A DNA stretch of 20,611 nt, taken from positions 108,676-129,286 of the forward strand of contig MU647228.1 of NCBI GenBank assembly GCA_026770585.1, in the 5' to 3' direction. A model generated the notes under the pieces. That model saw only the letters and a list, made by a program, of their open reading frames with translations. It did no database searches and was not told the DNA's origin. Position 1 is the stretch's first letter; each line of letters opens with the position of its first letter. Position numbers and translations under genes: made by a program. Below, one piece after another: positions 3,961 through 19,998 of this stretch. This stretch comes from Baffinella frigidus (taxonomy: Eukaryota > Cryptophyceae > Cryptomonadales > Baffinellaceae).

Positions 3961-4547
3961 CCCGTTCTGGCCGGGGTGCTCTTGAACGGACCACAGAAGC
4001 TTAGAACCTCATCCGGGGAAACCCATTTTTCTTTCATTTCCTGGCACAACGAAAATTACTACACAAATCGTTTTTGTAAGTAATATTAAAGCATTTGTGT
4101 GGTAATTTTCGTTGCCAGGAAATAAAAGGAAAACAGGTTTCCCCGGATGAAACCAGCCCCCTCGCCACCGACATTCCAGAATTCGAGCGCCATCCGTGCC
4201 ATCTTCGGGGTGGGATTTGTGCTATGGTAAAGCTATGTCGAGGCTAAGATATAAAAATCCACCCTTACGATAGATAACACACACCGGAGTCTAATCTGGG
4301 GACATGTTTAATTCACACAAAAATGGATCCCTATGTGTTCATAGGAGTTGGAAGAAGATTAATTAGAGCCCTAATTAAATTTAATTAGGGCAGAATCCGG
4401 TTTGATAGTCTATTTTCTTTTAAATTGAATATGTTCCCGGATGAAGTCTCACCCGTGCTTGCCGGTGTGGCCTTCGGCGGACCACACAAGCTTTGAAGCA
4501 GCCCCCTTGTTTCTGAACACTCCGACCGTCCCGTCTTCCCAGCCTAC
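3961..4547 (-). CDS. Four-exon WD40 segment split by two introners
   Basis: Best gene model in the window, minus strand. Exon a 4453-4547: VGWEDGTVGVFRNKGAASK then LVWSAEGHTGKH. Exon b 4269-4290: LRCVLSI. Exon c 4154-4202: MARMALEFWNVGGEGA. Exon d 4007 down to about 3961: GSKLLWSVQEHPGQNG. Phases agree at every junction (GG|A, ATC|ATG, G|GT). Donors are GTGAGA, GTAAGG and GTTTCA; acceptors are GCAG, TTAG, GAAG and GATGAG. LEFWNV...SKLLWS...EHPG is a typical WD40 d-strand plus tail, and exon a repeats it (GAASKLVWSAEGHTG), so these are two successive blades. Beyond 3961 the frame stays open (ENNNNFEITYQD) to a stop at about 3885, but the sequence turns AT-rich and may be intron. Confidence 0.65.
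4008..4153 (-). mobile_element. Introner-like foldback, GT-AG, GGTT duplication
   Basis: The minus strand starts GTTTCATCCGGGGAAACC and ends GGTTTCCCCGGATGAG. The inverted arms continue through TTCCTGGCA / TGCCAGGAA and ACGAAAATTACTACACAAA. AACC (plus strand) is duplicated at 4005-4008 and 4151-4154. Excision of 146 bp joins GGEGA to GSKLLW, completing a WD40 blade. Its TCATCCGGG end is shared with 4291-4452, 15079-15221 and 15332-15468. Confidence 0.75.
4291..4452 (-). mobile_element. Introner-like foldback, GT-AG, AGACT duplication
   Basis: The minus strand reads GTGAGACTTCATCCGGGAAC ... CCCAGATTAG. The inverted ends are TCATCCGGGAACATATT and the mirrored ACATGTCCCCAGA. AGTCT is duplicated at 4288-4292 and 4445-4449. 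Removal of 162 bp joins GKH-G to LRCVLSI in frame. A relative lies at 12914-13050 (shared CGGTTTGA(C/T)AG(G/T)C(C/T)ATTTTC block) and another, inverted, at 5764-5975. Confidence 0.65.
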
Positions 4548-4553
4548 CTGCTC

Positions 4554-4800
4554 AGGGTTTAGGGTTCAAGGTTTAGGGTTTAGGGTTTGGGGTGTAGGCT
4601 TAGGTTTTAGGGATTTGGGTTTAGGTTTGAGGTGTAGGGTTTAGGTCCAAAGAAGGGTCGAATTGGCCCCTTGTGTCTGAACACTCGGACCGTCCCGTTT
4701 TAGGTTTCGGGTTTTGGGTTTTGGGTTTTGGGTTTAGGTTTTTGGTTTTTGGGTTTAGGGTTTAGGGTTGAGGGTGTTCTCTGCAGGGTTTAGGGTTTAG
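4554..4800 (+). repeat. TTTAGGG-type array with embedded exon fragment
   Basis: Degenerate TTTAGGG, TTTGGGT and TGTAGGG units. The embedded island 4645-4698 is described separately. Confidence 0.9.
4645..4698 (-). pseudogene. Truncated WD40 blade fragment (GTVRVFRHKGPIRPFFG)
   Basis: The minus strand reads GTVRVFRHKGPIRPFFG, paralogous to GTVGVFRNKGAA of the 4453-4547 exon (about 28 of 31 bases identical over the shared part). Both ends run straight into heptamer repeats with no splice signals, so it looks like a duplicated fragment stranded in the array, or an exon overrun by repeat expansion. Confidence 0.6.
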
Positions 4801-4927: not shown

Positions 4928-5043
4928 GACGGCCTAATTCCGGCGTCAATCTATTGACAGCATTCCGTAGGGGTGCTACTGTATTCAATACGGAATGGTG
5001 ATACGGAATGCCGGCATTAGGTTGACGCCGGAATTAGGCCGTC
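4928..5043. mobile_element. Foldback element with 21-bp perfect ends
   Basis: The ends GACGGCCTAATTCCGGCGTC(A) are perfectly inverted, and a second nested pair GCATTCCGTA / TACGGAATGC lies inside. 116 bp. No other copy in the window. Confidence 0.8.
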
Positions 5044-5494: not shown

Positions 5495-5763
5495 CTGAAA
5501 ACACGCGAGCGTTGATGAACGCCTTGATCTGAGCGCCCGTGCCTGCAACGGAGCATGCTATCTTACGGGTAAAATTCGCTATCTTAGCCTCTATGTACAT
5601 CGTTACCACAGCGCAACAATCACCGCTAAGCTAGCACTGAGTACAATCGATTGTTGGGAAAGGCCTTGATCTTGGGGCCCGTACCTGCAGGGGTTGAGGG
5701 TTTGGGGTTTAGGGGTTAGGGGTTAATGCACCCCCATATGCTGAACACCAACCCTCAAGCTCA

Positions 5764-5975
5764 TCCGGAAACATGTTTAATTTTCAGATGACGAAAATGG
5801 ACTGGCAAACGGAATTCCAGCCCTACTGAAATTCATTTAGGGTCCTAATTAAGCTTGGTCCAACTCCTATGACAAATCGGGCCATCTTTCCGTTACCTTG
5901 TCCGTAGGAACCCCCCTATGTCCCTACGGGCTGCCTACCGTAGGGTCCTAAGGGATCATTTGAACATGTTCCCGG
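5764..5975. mobile_element. Foldback of the TCATCCGG family with a nested insertion
   Basis: The left end TCATCCGGAAACATGTTTAAT and the right GAACATGTTCCCGGA are inverted, as in 4291-4452. The right half is interrupted by the 5872-5955 copy of the repeat at the window start, so one element has inserted in another. Confidence 0.65.
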
Positions 5976-5989
5976 ATTGGCGCGTGGCA

Positions 5990-7739: not shown

Positions 7740-7940
7740 CCGCGAGGATCCGGCATAAGGCTCGCGTGGAGACCACTTCGCAGCGGCCGAGTTCCTTTCC
7801 ACCTTGGATTCAAGGTGAAATTCCGGTTAGGTTCCAGGGCAATGGATAAGATTCTAGTACAAATCGTTTATATGGACTGTATTCATGCAACCCCCGGTGG
7901 CTGCTATGTGGAGACCAAAGTTCTGCACGTTGGGCGTCAC
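7740..7940 (-). CDS. Exon pair (NVQNF / VVSTRALCRILA) split by an element
   Basis: The minus strand reads TPNVQNF up to 7916 and, after an element, VVSTRALCRILA to a GTTTGG donor at 7739. GT at 7915 and AG at 7776 would remove 140 bp. The joined NFVVSTRALCRILAG resembles the end of a WD40 blade. The 5' part runs into a heptamer array of opposite polarity with no clear acceptor, so this copy may be truncated. Confidence 0.4.
7773..7911. mobile_element. Foldback element, CCACTTAGCAGCC ends (copy 2 of 3)
   Basis: It begins CCACTTCGCAGCGGCC and ends GGTGGCTGCTATGTGG. TGGAGACCA occurs at both edges, consistent with a target duplication overlapping the ends. The interior is the reverse complement of 1775-1912. 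Confidence 0.8.
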
Positions 7941-8129: not shown

Positions 8130-8335
8130 CCACTCGAGGCTGAAAAAGGGAGCATTTTAAATGAGGGGTTATTAAATTTAGTACCAGTCACTTGCAGGTT
8201 TGGTCACGTATCTGGGGGAATTCCCCCAGATACGTGACCAAACGCCCCTACTTGTGTGAAATTTACCACACAGTTTTTTCTTCACTTGTAAAAGAATCCC
8301 TGTTTCAAAATAGTCACATTTCTAGCCTCGAGTGG
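8130..8335 (-). mobile_element. MITE family A, copy 2 (reverse orientation)
   Basis: Same CCACTCGAGGCT ends and internal blocks as 2770-2982 but inverted. The central palindrome is ATCTGGGGGAATTCCCCCAGAT. AA flanks both ends, a possible two-base duplication. Confidence 0.9.
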
Positions 8336-9319: not shown

Positions 9320-9584
9320 TACAAAGCACGAACGCACCAAAGGGCCCCAGGAGAGCGACCACACAACGAGGGTTCCACTCGAGAATGCTCGAGGATCTTT
9401 TTTACATGTAGGGTTCTAAACATTTGTACCAGGATAGGGCATTCCAACCTCGCGCCTGGTATAAGTTTTACTTCCGTGACCAAATTTACTTGAAATTTAC
9501 TACACAAATACTTACTTGTAAAGCATCTCACTTTTAAATAGGCCCCTCTAGCATTCTGGTGTGGTTTGCGTCGTCGGATCCCAA
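9320..9584 (-). CDS. WD40-type exon disrupted by an element (DPTTQ / TLVVWSLSWG)
   Basis: The minus strand reads WDPTTQT at 9584-9563 (acceptor AAACAG) and continues as TLVVWSLSWGPLVRS at 9374-9320. The intact paralog 8763-8853 shows that these halves were contiguous. The 188 bp between them is an inserted foldback. No canonical donor sits at the left break, so either a GA donor is used (GAC|GACGCA) or this copy is dead. The 3' limit is uncertain; GTGCGT at about 9340 is a possible donor. Confidence 0.5.
9375..9562. mobile_element. Foldback in WD40 exon, GGTT duplication
   Basis: The ends CCACTCGAGAATGCTCGAGG and CCTCTAGCATTCTGGTGTGG are imperfect inverted repeats, with GGTT at 9371-9374 and 9563-9566. 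Inside are GGTACAAAT / CCTGGTA and TTTACTACACAAAT motifs seen in other elements. Confidence 0.75.
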
Positions 9585-9822: not shown

Positions 9823-10012
9823 CCGGCGTAGTCCTAGCTCTGTCCCAGTTCAATTTGGGCTCGTAGATAGAGTGCCACCCCCGAAATTTCACAGGAGAAT
9901 TTCATGGGGGGGTGTCAAAATTCACCTGTGAAATTTCGGGGGGGGCATTCTATCTACGAGCCCAAATTGAACTGGGACAGAGCTAGGAGTCGGACACGAC
10001 CGCGGCGAGTTT
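9823..10012 (-). CDS. WD40-type exon (KLAAVVS / DYAG) split by an introner
   Basis: The minus strand has AAACTCGCCGCGGTCGTGTCC (10012-9992), then a 158 bp foldback, then GACTACGCCGG and a GTGATT donor. The paralog at 10437-10517 has the same stretch uninterrupted (KLAAVISDYAG). Reading across gives KLAAVVSDYAG. The 5' half of the exon is cut off by MITE copy 3, whose GAG end could serve as acceptor. Confidence 0.55.
9834..9991 (-). mobile_element. Introner-like foldback with GA-AG boundaries
   Basis: Two 62-base arms (9834-9895, 9925-9986) match with two mismatches. GAC is duplicated at both edges (plus GTC at 9831-9833 and 9989-9991). Exact restoration of the paralogous exon needs a GA donor (TCC|GACTCC) and a CTAG acceptor. 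GA donors have been reported in dinoflagellates. The near-perfect arms imply a recent insertion. Confidence 0.75.
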
Positions 10013-10224
10013 CCACTCGAGGCTAGAAATATGACTATTTAAAAACAGGAGTGCCTTTACAAGTGAAGAGGGGGAAAGAGCGGTGTAGGAATTTTCACAG
10101 AAAAAGGGGCGTTTGGTCACGTATCTAGGGGATTTTCCCTAGACACGTGACCAAGCCTGCGCGTGACTGGTACTAAATTTAACAACCGCACATTTAAAAT
10201 ACTCCCTTTTCCAGCCTCGAGTGG
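10013..10224 (+). mobile_element. MITE family A, copy 3
   Basis: CCACTCGAGGCT ends and all family A blocks, in the same orientation as copy 1. TT at both edges. The central palindrome is decayed (TATCTAGGGGATTTTCCCTAGACA). Confidence 0.9.
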
Positions 10225-10629: not shown

Positions 10630-10773
10630 TTTTAATCTCAGAGAATGTATATCAATTACAGCCTTTCCTGCAACGAAAATTACTACACAATTGGATCATA
10701 CTAGTAGTAGTAAAGCATTTGTGTAGTAATTTTCGTTGGCAGGAAAAGAACCAATCAATACATTATCTGAGAT
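10630..10773. mobile_element. Foldback element, shared core, ATCTCAGA arms
   Basis: The outer arms AATCTCAGA(G/T)AATGTAT are inverted at the right (ATACATTATCTGAGAT). The core TTCCTGCAACGAAAATTACT ... AGTAATTTTCGTTGGCAGGAA equals that of 4008-4153. Confidence 0.8.
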
Positions 10774-11160
10774 AAGGTTTAGGGTGTGGGTTTTAGGGTT
10801 TAGGGCTTGGGGTTTAGGGTTTAGGGGTTCAGGGGGTTAGGGTGTAGGGAGTAAGGTTGAGGCTTTGGGGTTTAGGGGGTAGGGCTCAAGGTTTAGGGTT
10901 TAGGGGGCTAGGGTTTAGGGTTTAGGGAGCTTACGGTTTAGGGTTTAGGGGGCTAGGGTTTGGGGCTTAGGGTTTAGGGTTTGGGGTTTGGGGTTTAGGG
11001 TTTAGGGTTTAGGGTACAGGGTACAGGGTTTAGGGTTTAAGGTTTAGGGTTGAGGGGGCTAGGGTGTAGGGTTTATGGTTTATGGTTTAGGGTTTGGGGT
11101 TTAGGATTCAGGGTTTAGGGTTTAGGGGGCTAGAGTGTAGGGTGTTGGGTCTAGGGTGTG
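10774..11160 (+). repeat. TTTAGGG array with GGGGGCTA interruptions
   Basis: TTTAGGG, TTTGGGG and TACAGGG units, with GGGGGCTAGGG recurring five or six times at irregular spacing. Confidence 0.95.
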
Positions 11161-12834: not shown

Positions 12835-12910
12835 CTTGGTGTTGTACGCGGGACGGCACCGTCTTTCTATTATTAGTAGTGCGCAGCGTGCAGTTTTGGA
12901 GAGGAAGCGT
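12835..12910 (+). CDS. Weak plus-strand WD40-like frame (DGTVF...SVQFWRGS)
   Basis: The plus strand reads TWCCTRDGTVFLLLVVRSVQ then FWRGS, followed by GTGATT. DGTVF and SVQFW have WD40 spacing, but the splice context is poor and it lies on the strand opposite to its neighbours. It could be chance. Confidence 0.2.
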
Positions 12911-12913
12911 GAT

Positions 12914-13050
12914 TTCTGGGGGGGACCTGGGCGGTTCCCTATTTGTTCGTAGGAGTTGGACGAGGGTTAATTAGGGCGCTAAGTGAATCTAATTAGGACC
13001 AGAACCCGGTTTGACAGGCCATTTTCTTTTCAATTAAACATGTTCCCGGA
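12914..13050. mobile_element. Relative of the 4291-4452 foldback
   Basis: CCTAT(T/G)TGTTC(G/A)TAGGAGTTGGA and CCGGTTTGACAGGCCATTTTC match 4333-4420, and the right end ACATGTTCCCGGA matches the family end. The left end is degraded. Confidence 0.7.
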
Positions 13051-13070
13051 CTACACTAGATCTGCGGGGA

Positions 13071-13830: not shown

Positions 13831-14042
13831 CTACTCGAGGCTAGAGGTGTGACTATTTTAAAACAGACATTCTTTTACAAGTGAAGGGAAGAAAATAATT
13901 ATGCAGGAATTTTCACACAAATGGGGGCATTTGGTAACGTATCTCAAGTTATAACTTGAGATACGTGACCAAGTATGCCCGTGACTGGTACTGAATTTAA
14001 AACCCCCATATTTAAAATAGTCCCACTTCAAGCCTCGAGCGG
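13831..14042 (+). mobile_element. MITE family A, copy 4
   Basis: The ends CTACTCGAGGCT / AGCCTCGAGCGG each carry one change from the family consensus. The central palindrome GTATCTCAAGTTATAACTTGAGATAC is intact and different in sequence from the other copies. Confidence 0.9.
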
Positions 14043-14124
14043 AGGATCCTCTGGAATTGTGCAGTGATTTTCGTTGCCAGAAAGCGATTGCTCGATACGG
14101 TTACAGAGAGACACACGGTGAGGC

Positions 14125-15018: not shown

Positions 15019-15331
15019 ACTGTAGTCTGTCGCAATCCACCCCGGGTTTGTGCATGTCTAGGAGGGAGCGTCCCGGACCTAACCCGGGAACAAGTATTTT
15101 TCTTGTTAAAGCTGGCAATGAAAATTACCACACAACGGGTCACGTCCTCACGTCCGAAGCAATTGAGTGGTAACTTTCGTGCAGATCTTTTACAAGAAAA
15201 ATACTTGCTCCCGGATGAGACCTGCGGGGTCGCGGTATGTCTTATCGGCGGGGTCTAAGATGTGGATTGCTGACGATAGACATCCCTGATTTGCACCAAG
15301 TTTACTACACTCAGGGAAGTGGATCACGAGC
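15019..15331 (-). CDS. Two exons (LVIHFPEC...AIHILDPADKT / PGRSLLDMHKPG) around an introner
   Basis: Minus exon 15331-15222 reads LVIHFPECSKLGANQGC then LSSAIHILDPADKTYRDPA. AIHILDPADKT fits a WD40 d-strand. After the 15079-15221 element the frame continues as GPGRSLLDMHKPGVDCDRLQ, up to the next element at 15015. Both halves are open in the same frame, the main support for the model. The 15332-15468 element forms the upstream boundary. Confidence 0.6.
15079..15221 (-). mobile_element. Introner-like foldback, GT-AG, GACCT duplication
   Basis: The minus strand begins GTCTCATCCGGGAGCAAG and ends CTTGTTCCCGGGTTAG. The arms include AAGTATTTTTCTTGT and its mirror. GACCT is at 15076-15080 and 15219-15223. 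The core has ATGAAAATTACCACACAA / GTGGTAACTTTCGTGC. Excision of 143 bp joins GCAG to GTCCGG in frame. Confidence 0.75.
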
Positions 15332-15468
15332 CTTATCCGGGGAACCCTATTTTTCTTTAGTTTGATGGCAAGCAAAATTACTACATAAATGCTTTAATAT
15401 TACTTATAAGATCGAATTGTGTAGTAATTTTCCTTGCCATCAAACTAATAGGTTTCCCCGGATAAAGC
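15332..15468 (-). mobile_element. Introner-like foldback, GC-AG, AGCC duplication
   Basis: The minus strand begins GCTTTATCCGGGGAAACC and ends GGTTCCCCGGATAAG. AGCC is at 15329-15332 and 15466-15469. Core as in 4008-4153. The only boundary pair at the duplication is GC-AG. The frame downstream is open; upstream the same frame has a TGA seven bases before the boundary, so this locus may be partly decayed. Confidence 0.65.
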
Positions 15469-15546: not shown

Positions 15547-15555
15547 TGTGGATTT

Positions 15556-15727
15556 CATATGGAAACACTTTCAATTTATAAAAAATATGAAAACACTTTC
15601 AATTTATAAAAAAGGTTTCAATCAAAATTACTACACGTTTGCTTTAATATTACTAGCCAAGACCTTTCTGCGTAGTAAATTTCATTGAACCATTTTTTTT
15701 ATAAATTGAAAGTGTTTTGGTATAAGA
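15556..15727. mobile_element. Foldback element, shared core, ACACTTTCAATTTATAAAAA arms
   Basis: The arm ACACTTTCAATTTATAAAAA occurs twice in tandem on the left and once inverted on the right. The core TCAAAATTACTACACG ... GCGTAGTAAATTTCATTGA is the common one. The duplicated left arm is unusual. Confidence 0.8.
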
Positions 15728-15757: not shown

Positions 15758-15830
15758 CGCGGGAAAACGCCACGCCACAGCCCCCGTTCCTCAACTGCGG
15801 ATTAGACCACCAGCAACACGTAGCAGCTTT
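15758..15830 (-). CDS. WD40-type exon (WWSNPQLRNGGCGVAFSRDPE), duplicate 2
   Basis: The minus strand reads CCWWSNPQLRNGGCGVAFSR then DPET before TAG. Colinear with 15490-15546. After CCT the sequence is GAAACC, so a GA donor, or loss of the donor, is possible. The segment GAGAGATGAGGTGNTAGGTTTCAGGGT downstream of it recurs at 16166-16192. Confidence 0.5.
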
Positions 15831-15995
15831 TACCGGGTCCTTGCAAGATCCGGGAGTGAAATTATTTTTTGATTTATTCGTAGGACCCTACAGTAGGAAA
15901 CTCTAGGGACCTCGAATTGCTGACGGGAGATACCGATGAGATCTCATCGGTTTAGCTGAAAGTTACTACAGTACCTGACCCGGTTATGAGCTGCT
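15820..15995. mobile_element. Foldback element, AGCAGCT ends
   Basis: AGCAGCTTTTACCGGGTC is mirrored by GACCCGGTTATGAGCTGCT. Inside are a perfect 20-base palindrome ACCGATGAGATCTCATCGGT and the CCCTACAGTAGG motif. It is directly followed by the next foldback. Confidence 0.75.
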
Positions 15996-15996
15996 T

Positions 15997-16146
15997 TTAT
16001 CTCAGAAAACGAGTTCTAAAACTCGTTTTCTTAAGTCAATTCCCCTACAAATTCGTCAACTTATTCTTTACTCTCCGCATAAGTTGAAAAAATTGTAAGG
16101 GGATTGACTTAAGAAAACGAGTTTTAGAACTCGTTTTCTGAGATAA
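15997..16146. mobile_element. Nested-palindrome foldback, 54-bp arms
   Basis: Arms 15997-16050 and 16093-16146 match with two mismatches. Each arm itself contains the palindrome GAAAACGAGTTCTAAAACTCGTTTTC, so three alternative hairpins can form. The loop repeats the inverted GTCAACTTATT / AATAAGTTGA-like pair. Confidence 0.9.
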
Positions 16147-16184
16147 GCTTCGGGTTGCGGGTGGGAGAGATGAGGTGTTAGGTT

Positions 16185-16309: not shown

Positions 16310-16808
16310 CAAGTTCGGCGTGCCAGTCCGGTGCCCGATCAAGAACCGGAGCCTGCCGCTCGCTGCGTCGTACACCCGCACGACACTGTTCGCGTAGTCC
16401 TGCTCGCAGCGCAAGCGTGAAAAACTGTCCCTTCGCTGAGCGATCAGAAACCTTGAACGTTTTGGAATGCGGAGGGGATGAGCGTACGAGCGTGCATGCC
16501 AGCCGGCGGCACGAAAGCATTTTAAGGGGTCGTGTCATTTTTAAGGAGTGGCCAACCTCCCCGCCAGCGAACGCCACTGACTTGCCGCCAGGCGAGAAGG
16601 CGCCGGAGCCGACTTGGGTGTCGCCGAATCGGAAATCATTTCCCACTTTCAGCGTGCGAGCGGCCCACTGTTTCGAGCCGCTCTGCAACTCTCCATAGCT
16701 GCCGTTACTGCTGGCCAGCGTGAACCCGAGGTCTGTGGTGCGCCAGTCCACTGCCATCGAACTGATGTTCCTCTCCCGTCCAACAGGCAGCGACGGCCGA
16801 GCGGCCAT
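16310..16808 (-). CDS. WD40 blades, two exons (minus strand)
   Basis: Exon 16808-16557 reads ...ISSMAVDWRTTDLGFTLASS, then KQWAARTLKVGNDFRFGD and GSGAFSPGGKSVAFAGGE. Exon 16402-16310 reads QDYANSVVRVYDAASGRLRF then LIGHRTGTPNL. AFSPGGKSVAFAGG followed by SVVRVYDAASGRLRFLIGH is a complete WD40 b-c-d run only after removing the 154 bp intron 16403-16556 (GAG|GTTGGC...GCGAG|CAG, phase 0). The donor after PNL is GTGGGC. The 5' end may use TTTCAAG at about 16815 instead of the ATG at 16808. Upstream lies the family D foldback and then the plus-strand gene. Confidence 0.75.
16403..16556 (-). other. GT-AG intron, 154 bp, with dispersed 3' half
   Basis: It starts GTTGGCCACTCC and ends CGCTGCGAG, with GAG at both exon edges. 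The 3' part (GGTTTCTGATCGCTCAGCGAAG region) is repeated at 11190-11258. It has no foldback shape, so it differs from the introners. Confidence 0.7.
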
Positions 16809-16997: not shown

Positions 16998-17034
16998 TCT
17001 GATTTTTTTCGTTGGCGCGATGGTCGGGATTCAG

Positions 17035-18698: not shown

Positions 18699-18791
18699 CG
18701 TGTCCACTTAGCAGCGACCGAGATCGTTTCGTGTCCACTTAGCAGCGACCGATTTCCTTTCGTGTCCACTTAGCAGCGACCGAGTTCCTTC
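18699..18791 (+). repeat. 31-bp tandem repeat x3, expanded element end
   Basis: CGTGTCCACTTAGCAGCGACCGA... three times in exact 31 bp register. CCACTTAGCAGC is the terminal sequence of the 1775-1912 / 7773-7911 elements, and the rest of that element follows at 18792. Confidence 0.9.
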
Positions 18792-18904
18792 CCCCCCGGA
18801 TATCCGGGGGAAACGTGGTTCAAGTTCCAGGGCAATGGATAAGATTTTTCAGTACAAATCGTTTGATGGACGGTATCCGTGAAGCCTCCGGTGGCTTTTA
18901 AGTG
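18792..18904 (+). mobile_element. Foldback element, CCACTTAGCAGCC ends (copy 3 of 3)
   Basis: CAAGTTCCAGGGCAATGGAT, GTACAAATCGTTT and CCGGTGGCTTTTAAGTGG as in the other copies. A perfect CCCCCCGGATATCCGGGGG palindrome sits near the left side. The left terminal repeat is the tripled unit above. Confidence 0.8.
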
Positions 18905-19028
18905 GCTCGGCGCCCCTGCTCCAACACTCTGGGGGTGCAAGTGCGGCGGCCGTGTTGGCATTCATCAACTTCTCCTTCACTCACCCTGTCGGGCATTGAC
19001 TTTTCCGGTCGGGTAATTCACTTTTGTC

Positions 19029-19798: not shown

Positions 19799-19998
19799 TA
19801 GAGCGTTTGCGGTAATTGTTGTCCGTTTTGGACGTACGATTTTCCGGTTTTCCGGTTTTTTAAAATGTTGTAAAGGTCGTTGAATATTTTAAATGGACAC
19901 TTCTCTGGTACAAATGAAACGGGGGGGGGGGCAAATGAAAACCGGAAAACCGGAATACCGTACGTCCAAAACGGACAACAATTACCGCAAACGCTCTA
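19799..19998. mobile_element. Complete foldback, ~60-bp arms
   Basis: TAGAGCGTTTGCGGTAATTG through GGTTTTCCGGTTTT is mirrored at 19938-19998 with very few differences. The loop carries TTTAAATGGACACTTCT and a run of 11 G. A one-armed copy is at 2655-2722. Confidence 0.9.

Follow-up and report, generated by a model that had tools for sequence, protein, structure and literature searches.

Hairpin mobile elements of two main types in one gene, at a locus that resembles intron-making transposons of plankton

The window, the whole 20.6-kb stretch of DNA that was analysed, is eukaryotic-looking and rich in TTTAGGG-like repeats and foldbacks; its features are collected in Table 1. Long degenerate arrays of the TTTAGGG-like type lie between coding pieces over the whole window, and an open stretch on the plus strand from about position 17020, starting MVGIQDGSADQGDELIPQLF by eye, suggests a second gene in the opposite direction. 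No tRNA was found in the window, no Rfam family was matched at gathering scores, and the genomic window held no spliced-leader match.

The first exons of the gene studied here are joined in the same order in P0001, a 165-aa protein from a 1157-bp ENA contig that was matched with an E value of 4.9e-22. The start of the third coding segment has an earlier copy at 15794-15753 (79% over 14 positions against P0001). Because the P0001 matches follow the gene order, the minus strand holds a real gene, with its first pieces separated by intron-like sequence. P0001 supports these first exons, and its reach stops short of the region of the two foldback elements E1 and E2. Another match to it, at 20455-20294 (30%, E 0.00014, with a stop and with the composition correction off), looks like chance and was set aside. 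No relatives of P0001 were found in viral contigs, and two protein searches with joined exons, one of them spanning the E1/E2 region, gave no match at E ≤ 10.

The first-pass annotation had called this a WD40 gene, a label based on short motifs that was not borne out by any Pfam WD40 family at E ≤ 10 when seven short pieces, one of them the ortholog, were searched. Propeller-type matches of the seven pieces were limited to PD40 (0.17) and Beta-prop_THOC3 (0.13), and the best Pfam match was a Teneurin TTR-like domain in the ortholog (0.00041, below the domain cut-off). SPDG- and GH-like motifs are visible, and generic WD40 peptides gave matches at motif level only.

Table 1. Coordinates of coding pieces, mobile elements and predicted introns in the window
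Feature	Position	Strand	Description
First coding exon	16560-16808	minus	begins MAARPSLPVG; 59% identity with ortholog fragment P0001
Second coding exon	16319-16396	minus	73% identical to P0001 over 26 residues
Third coding segment	15447-15539	minus	54.5% identity with P0001 across 33 aligned; one stop, in the window sequence
5' half copy of 4452-4537 exon	4667-4701	minus	NGTVRVFRHKG
Whole uninterrupted exon copy	4452-4537	minus	DGTVGVFRNKGAASKLVWSAEGHTGKHG
3' half copy of 4452-4537 exon	3961-4162	minus	AGSKLLWSVQEHPGQNG; split by E1
E1	4009-4150	minus	T.AT-type foldback element; 4-bp duplication AACC (GGTT in sense)
E1 predicted intron	4008-4153	minus	GT-AG, 146 nt
E2	4292-4444	minus	second T.AT-type family; duplication AGTC (GACT in sense); within intron with donor GTGAGA at 4452
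66-nt stretch GTAAGG..GAAG	4203-4268	minus	possible separate intron, or partly within one intron 4452-4222; not unique
E1-family element	15080-15218	minus	duplication GACC (GGTC in sense); exact excision GT-AG; limits by eye
E1-family element	15333-15465	minus	duplication AGCC (GGCT in sense); exact excision GC-AG
E1-family element	1254-1410	minus	duplication AATC (GATT in sense); exact excision AT-AG
E1-family element	15555-15725		duplication GATT; immediately upstream (sense) of likely acceptor CAG; limits by eye
CCAC-type element	15807-16164		duplication GA; in neighbouring copy of the stretch holding 15555-15725; 15997-16146 nested inside
T.AT-type element TTATCTCAG	15997-16146		duplication GCTT; nested in 15807-16164
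Third-type long hairpin, ends CCTAGCTC	9833-9987	minus	duplication AGT (4-bp GACT possible); splits exon copy KLAAVVSDYAG; GA-AG
CCAC-type element	9375-9564	minus	duplication TT; splits exon copy DPTTQT/LVVWSLSWG; no GT/GC/GA-AG excision
CCAC-type element	8130-8335	minus	duplication AA; splits exon copy VTLHVRNF/GSK; no GT/GC/GA-AG excision
CCAC-type element	10013-10224	minus	duplication TT; shares half copy with 9833-9987

The arms of E1 (ends TCATCCGGGGAA) are identical at 12 of 12 positions and form a near-perfect hairpin with AACC on each side, and its minus-strand RNA is predicted to fold as a single long hairpin (-81.4 kcal/mol, z -14.9). The ends of E2 are decayed, being alike at 9 of 12 positions (TCATCCGGG at one end and TAATCTGGG at the other), with AGTC on both sides; its RNA fold has a z of -3.9 and was equalled by that of 1 of 200 shuffles. 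The hairpins of the five elements folded had z values between -3.6 and -22.6.

Both of these foldbacks had been proposed before and are real, but the E2 duplication is of 4 bp and not of 5, since the fifth base is part of the element end on one side. Likewise, the earlier spans 4291-4452 and 4008-4153 hold as intron models but not as limits of the elements; the GT and AG dinucleotides described at or beside the duplications are present. What had been taken as a two-element locus is larger, as further foldbacks of two main types exceed chance: one with T.AT ends and 4-bp duplications, the other with CCAC ends and 2-bp duplications.

These two end types were picked beforehand from reading the window, which was then scanned for T.AT pairs (12-nt inverted ends, up to 3 mismatches, 70-420 bp) and for CCAC pairs (10-nt inverted ends, up to 2 mismatches). 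The T.AT scan yielded 23 pairs, six of them with identical 4-bp flanks (E1 and E2 included), compared to a mean of 0.17 and a maximum of 1 in 30 dinucleotide shuffles; regardless of flanks, the shuffles averaged 8.5 pairs (maximum 15), and therefore part of the 23 pairs is due to chance. With CCAC, 22 pairs were found (shuffle mean 5.5, maximum 11), nine with identical 2-bp flanks (shuffle mean 0.43, maximum 3). A duplication is thus absent in 17 of the 23 T.AT and 13 of the 22 CCAC end pairs, and one of the six flanked T.AT pairs, 4935-5036, is ambiguous because of its palindromic flank GGCC. Three T.AT elements with exact 4-bp flanks (15080, 15555 and 11649, elements being named here by a position) were added by eye, and no exact duplication was seen for 13275, 12145, 2770, 14191 and 16857.

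When the elements were aligned, E1 scored 174 with 15333, 127 with 10633, 104 with 1254, 96 with 15080 and 86 with 15555, and E2 scored 146 and 160 with 5761-5976 and 12900-13051. The score between E1 and E2 was 66, compared to a maximum of 58 in 60 shuffled-letter pairs. Aligned bases are 77-84% identical between E1 and its relatives and 79% between E1 and E2, a measure that fails to separate the two families because the alignments are gapped. The window searched therefore holds several similar copies with transposon marks, as is the case for introners.

Other resemblances were seen among the repeats. The elements 4009-4150, 10633-10775, 15333-15465, 15080-15218, 15555-15725 and 1254-1410 differ at their ends and have in common a similar inner hairpin module around AAAATTACTACACAAATGCTTTA. 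In the CCACTCGAGG-ended family, 2770-2982, 10013-10224 and 13833-14043 are 76-82% alike over their length, and 8130-8335 is similar only in parts near the ends. The CCAC-type element 13832-14041, which has no exact duplication, seems to lie inside the remnant of an E1-family element, since its joined flanks match the inner module of that family.

A CCACTT-ended repeat is present at 1775-1912, 7773-7911 and 18766-18905 without identical 2-bp flanks. In a duplicated stretch (1492-1687 and 1914-2097, 69% alike) an apparent CCACCAGCCC element occupies the same place in both copies, and its insertion may therefore predate the duplication. The inverted repeat at 19799-19998, with 61-nt arms that are 97% complementary and TA adjoining its GAGCGTTTGCGG ends, is possibly another transposon type. 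The element patterns had no match in viral contigs, and one element 23-mer matched a Bacteroidetes bin among genome contigs.

The flanks of the elements were joined and compared with the rest of the window, with gaps for 27 elements or candidates and without gaps, together with controls, for 25 of them (all except 13832 and 839). Four of the 25 joins could be aligned through the junction, in non-repetitive sequence, to a further copy of the exon, with scores of 58 for 4009 (38/47 positions), 58 for 9833 (32/35), 60 for 9375 (37/44) and 46 for 8130 (30/37), and none of the four exceeded 26 when the join was shifted by 1-3 nt. Among 1500 random joins, counted after dropping those that held several telomere-like words, 50 scored at least 36 and 30 at least 42, with a maximum of 72 and a 99th percentile of 48; the score of 8130 is therefore not extreme by itself, and the other three exceed that percentile.

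In addition, 15555 and 15807 lie in two copies of one stretch (50/59 positions identical, 48 of the first 51) and provide reciprocal empty sites, which directly demonstrates insertion with duplications of 4 bp (GATT) and 2 bp (GA), respectively. Insertions, duplications and empty sites are thus direct observations. The gapped comparison further flagged 13832 (58), 2770 (32), 16857 (26) and 11649 (38). The ungapped scores of 10633 (64) and 15807 (36) came through TTTAGGG-like repeats and were not counted, nor was that of 11649 (42), which was still 40 in the shifted join.

For E1, the joined flanks align without gaps to 4461-4507, and the far side of the junction contributes only 8 of the 47 matched positions. 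Removal of E1 with one copy of the duplication takes out a predicted GT-AG intron and restores the match to the nearby uninterrupted copy of the same exon. The acceptor AG consists of the final A of the element and the leading G of the duplicated GGTT, and the duplication thus contributes part of the GT-AG pair. That E1 is a transposon insertion is very likely, and it probably serves as an intron.

Exact excision on the minus strand was then considered for 16 elements. Predicted ends were GT-AG for 4009 and 15080, GC-AG for 15333 and GA-AG for 9833. The other 12 elements gave none of these pairs, with AT-AG in 1254 and AC-AG in 4292; none was obtained in any of eight CCAC elements (9375, 8130, 10013, 8630, 6000, 1930, 11302 and 2984) or for 11649 and 10633.

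In eight of nine T.AT elements the duplication agrees with GNYY on one strand or on both (background 0.134 per site), the motif having been chosen after inspection and 10633, with a duplication only at a one-base offset, being excluded. The fit was on the sense strand only for 4009, 4292, 15333 and 1254, on both strands for 15080 and 4935, on the antisense strand only for 15555 and 15997, neighbours in the reciprocal stretch, and absent for 11649. This pattern would be expected if AG-making insertions survive in coding sequence, but the elements are few, and 15080, 15333 and 1254 are only putatively exonic.

E2 is a transposon insertion inside a predicted intron, whose limits were modelled between two anchor exons with GT-AG introns of at least 40 nt and at most two introns. 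Thirteen models kept the frame (one with a single intron and 12 with two), all of them with the donor at 4452 and with varying acceptors; they treat MARMALEFWNV as coding, a stretch that is itself without support. The phase-consistent frame of the first-pass annotation is among the 12 two-intron models but is not unique. An in-frame stop TGA beside E2 would remain after exact removal of the element, and the donor GTGAGA at 4452 removes it.

As the donor 4452 lies outside E2 and 13 models keep the frame, E2 is not necessarily an intron in its own right, and the chances that it is are about even. Just as plausible is one older intron, 4452-4222, later entered by E2, with the 66-nt intron and a 22-nt exon nonexistent: the single one-intron GT-AG model keeps the frame (KHG-TNPTPKMARMAL) and every model found needs the outside donor, whereas the two-intron model has good-looking sites (GTGAGA, TTAG and GTAAGG).

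The two paralogous blades read earlier in this region match over 56 nt with 80% identity (4507-4452 compared to 4162-3961 minus E1), but the upstream part of the second blade does not share in the match. The match begins about 9 nt before the E1 junction, and therefore MARMALEFWNVGGE is without support as a blade half. The second blade is a 3' half copy, whose upstream part has no relative in the window.

Half copies of this kind are not limited to the E1 region. With the elements removed, four exon segments (15800-15219, 9580-8116, 5689-5268 and 4701-3961) each contain a whole copy that has a 5' half copy on its upstream side and a 3' half copy on its downstream side. Relative to the whole copy, the two halves adjoin at nearly the same place (overlap of 5, gap of 8, overlap of 9 and overlap of 5 nt); the 3' half at 15235-15219 matches over just 14 nt. 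The test covered twelve segments, with repeat-like matches filtered out: both halves were found in these four, and only downstream copies of the 3' part in three (10530, 7533 and, by a C-rich match, 12475). The upstream copy in the 1690 segment belongs to a known tandem duplication and is off-pattern, no half copies were detected for X2 (16420-16290), 3240 and 343, and the first exon had one weak match outside the gene.

Mobile elements lie in a half copy for three of the four half-whole-half segments. All four exon-borne elements (4009, 9833, 9375 and 8130) are in half copies and the nearby whole copies are uninterrupted, partly by construction because they were found by matching without large gaps.

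The changes between half and whole copies gave a pN/pS of 0.40 in the blade frame (nine comparisons), compared to 1.62 and 2.03 in the other frames; pooled, 32 of the 69 changes are synonymous (P 0.00017 if changes are independent). By half copy, synonymous to non-synonymous changes were 6:1 for 9375, 4:3 for 8130, 2:3 for 15794, 2.5:5.5 for 10530, 2:0 for 7533, and 5:8 and 8:5 for the two halves of 5560. The halves of the E1 segment (0:3 and 2.5:8.5) gave no sign of constraint, and the one that bears E1 is not coding-like (2.5 synonymous changes in 12.5 sites, 8.5 non-synonymous in 38.5). As the changes are coding-like overall, the whole and half forms were both coding, or else the half copies are leftovers of recent origin.

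Hairpin mobile elements have inserted repeatedly into this one gene, four of them in copies of coding stretches whose reading continues only once the element is taken out, and the locus resembles intron-making transposons of the plankton type. We lean towards the view that the foldbacks belong to two or more systems of non-autonomous elements mobilized by a transposase, and that those of the T.AT type are able to act as introns. Transcription, splicing and the choice of splice sites are predicted here from the DNA. The T.AT system would duplicate 4 bp, usually GNYY on one strand, and the CCAC system 2 bp. For a T.AT element inserted so that the G-first strand is in sense, AG would arise from its last A together with the initial G of the duplication, the duplicated NY would supply the donor (GT, GC or worse), and splicing would remove the element with one copy of the duplication, so that the old message returns.

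E1 would be the GT-AG case of this rule and E2 an element of the same type near the start of a possibly older intron, whereas CCAC elements would require non-GT-AG splicing, as reported for Amoebophrya A25 and A120. The earlier interpretation as introners is therefore the best one for E1, in view of its transposon-type insertion, empty site and GT-AG ends, but the E2 intron may be older or longer; that the family is active or recent has only indirect support, in the intact arms of E1 and the several related copies in the window.

The elements could also sit in spare or dead exon pieces. On a rival view they would be ordinary miniature inverted-repeat transposons in long introns, some within leftover duplicated exon pieces, which would be removed only inside larger introns and would at no time be introns themselves. 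This would fit the position of all four clean exon empty sites in half copies with the whole copy close by, the location of 15555 and 15807 directly upstream of a likely acceptor CAG, and the result of none in eight for GT/GC/GA-AG in the CCAC elements examined. However, the pooled pN/pS points to a present or past coding role of the half copies, the 9375 copy has a ratio of 6:1, and the exact GT-AG of E1 and 15080 also argues against it, so we regard this alternative as rather unlikely.

A more elaborate possibility takes the halves, once the elements are spliced out, and the whole copy as two alternative versions of the exon (nested alternative exons), or has introns born by break repair that copies a neighbouring exon, with two transposon systems, one of them able to make GT-AG and the other not, both supplying introns to one gene; this would be a speculative and improbable combination. 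Removal from DNA and not from RNA, like the internal eliminated sequences of ciliates, would give the same picture by exact loss with one short direct-repeat copy, but AG can be placed at the sense end of five T.AT elements and of 9833, which points to splicing, and such DNA elimination is not known from relatives; we consider it extremely improbable.

If the proposed T.AT and CCAC systems do supply introns, a single gene would have introns from two transposon types that differ in duplication length, one giving GT-AG by a simple rule and the other not, and the origin of splice sites could be followed one base at a time, with the gene's own exon copies as built-in empty sites. The half-whole-half arrangement would be a possible second route of intron birth.

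Miniature inverted-repeat transposable elements are short and non-coding, with inverted ends and target duplications, and intron function is not part of the definition of the class. The elements described here are likewise short, without coding capacity, with inverted ends and target duplications; the difference is the intron function proposed for them.

The closest known systems are the introners of Amoebophrya and Symbiodinium. According to the relevant parts of Farhat 2021 (PMC7789003), more than 60% of the introns of Amoebophrya A25 and A120 are non-GT-AG, and about 11% and 30% of these non-GT-AG introns, respectively, carry inverted repeats of 8-20 nt and direct repeats of 3-5 nt; in the excerpts considered of PMC12005148 and PMC11453091, Amoebophrya AT5 and a Karlodinium-derived strain have mostly GT-AG introns. 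As far as those descriptions go, the locus resembles A25 and A120 in its hairpins and many families, in having inverted repeats at the ends of predicted introns, many of them non-GT-AG, and in the short direct repeats at putative exon borders. The inverted-repeat families described there start with TTA and two purines (A25) or TAT (A120), whereas the ends here are T.AT (mostly TYATC) and CCAC; TCATCC, TTATCC, TTATCTC, TAATAC, CCAC and others do not conform to those starts. The 4 bp of the T.AT elements fit the direct repeats reported, whereas the 2 bp of the CCAC elements fall outside their range. The Amoebophrya introners are described with RNA-seq backing, in contrast to the elements here, known from DNA.

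In Symbiodinium microadriaticum, the sections of Gozashti 2022 (PMC9860276) used here describe introners with 4-bp duplications supplying the donor. Terminal inverted repeats, 4-bp target duplications, a donor from the duplication and an acceptor at the element end are likenesses by description and not by sequence, and 4009 and 15080 are predicted to combine the 4-bp duplication, the inverted ends and the donor; the difference is that AG is split here between the last A of the element and the first G of the duplication. Several introner families in one genome, as outlined for Polarella and other dinoflagellates (Roy 2023, via PMC11453091), are a further likeness by description. The kind of element is therefore already known, and what is unusual is the combination of two systems with half-whole-half exons.
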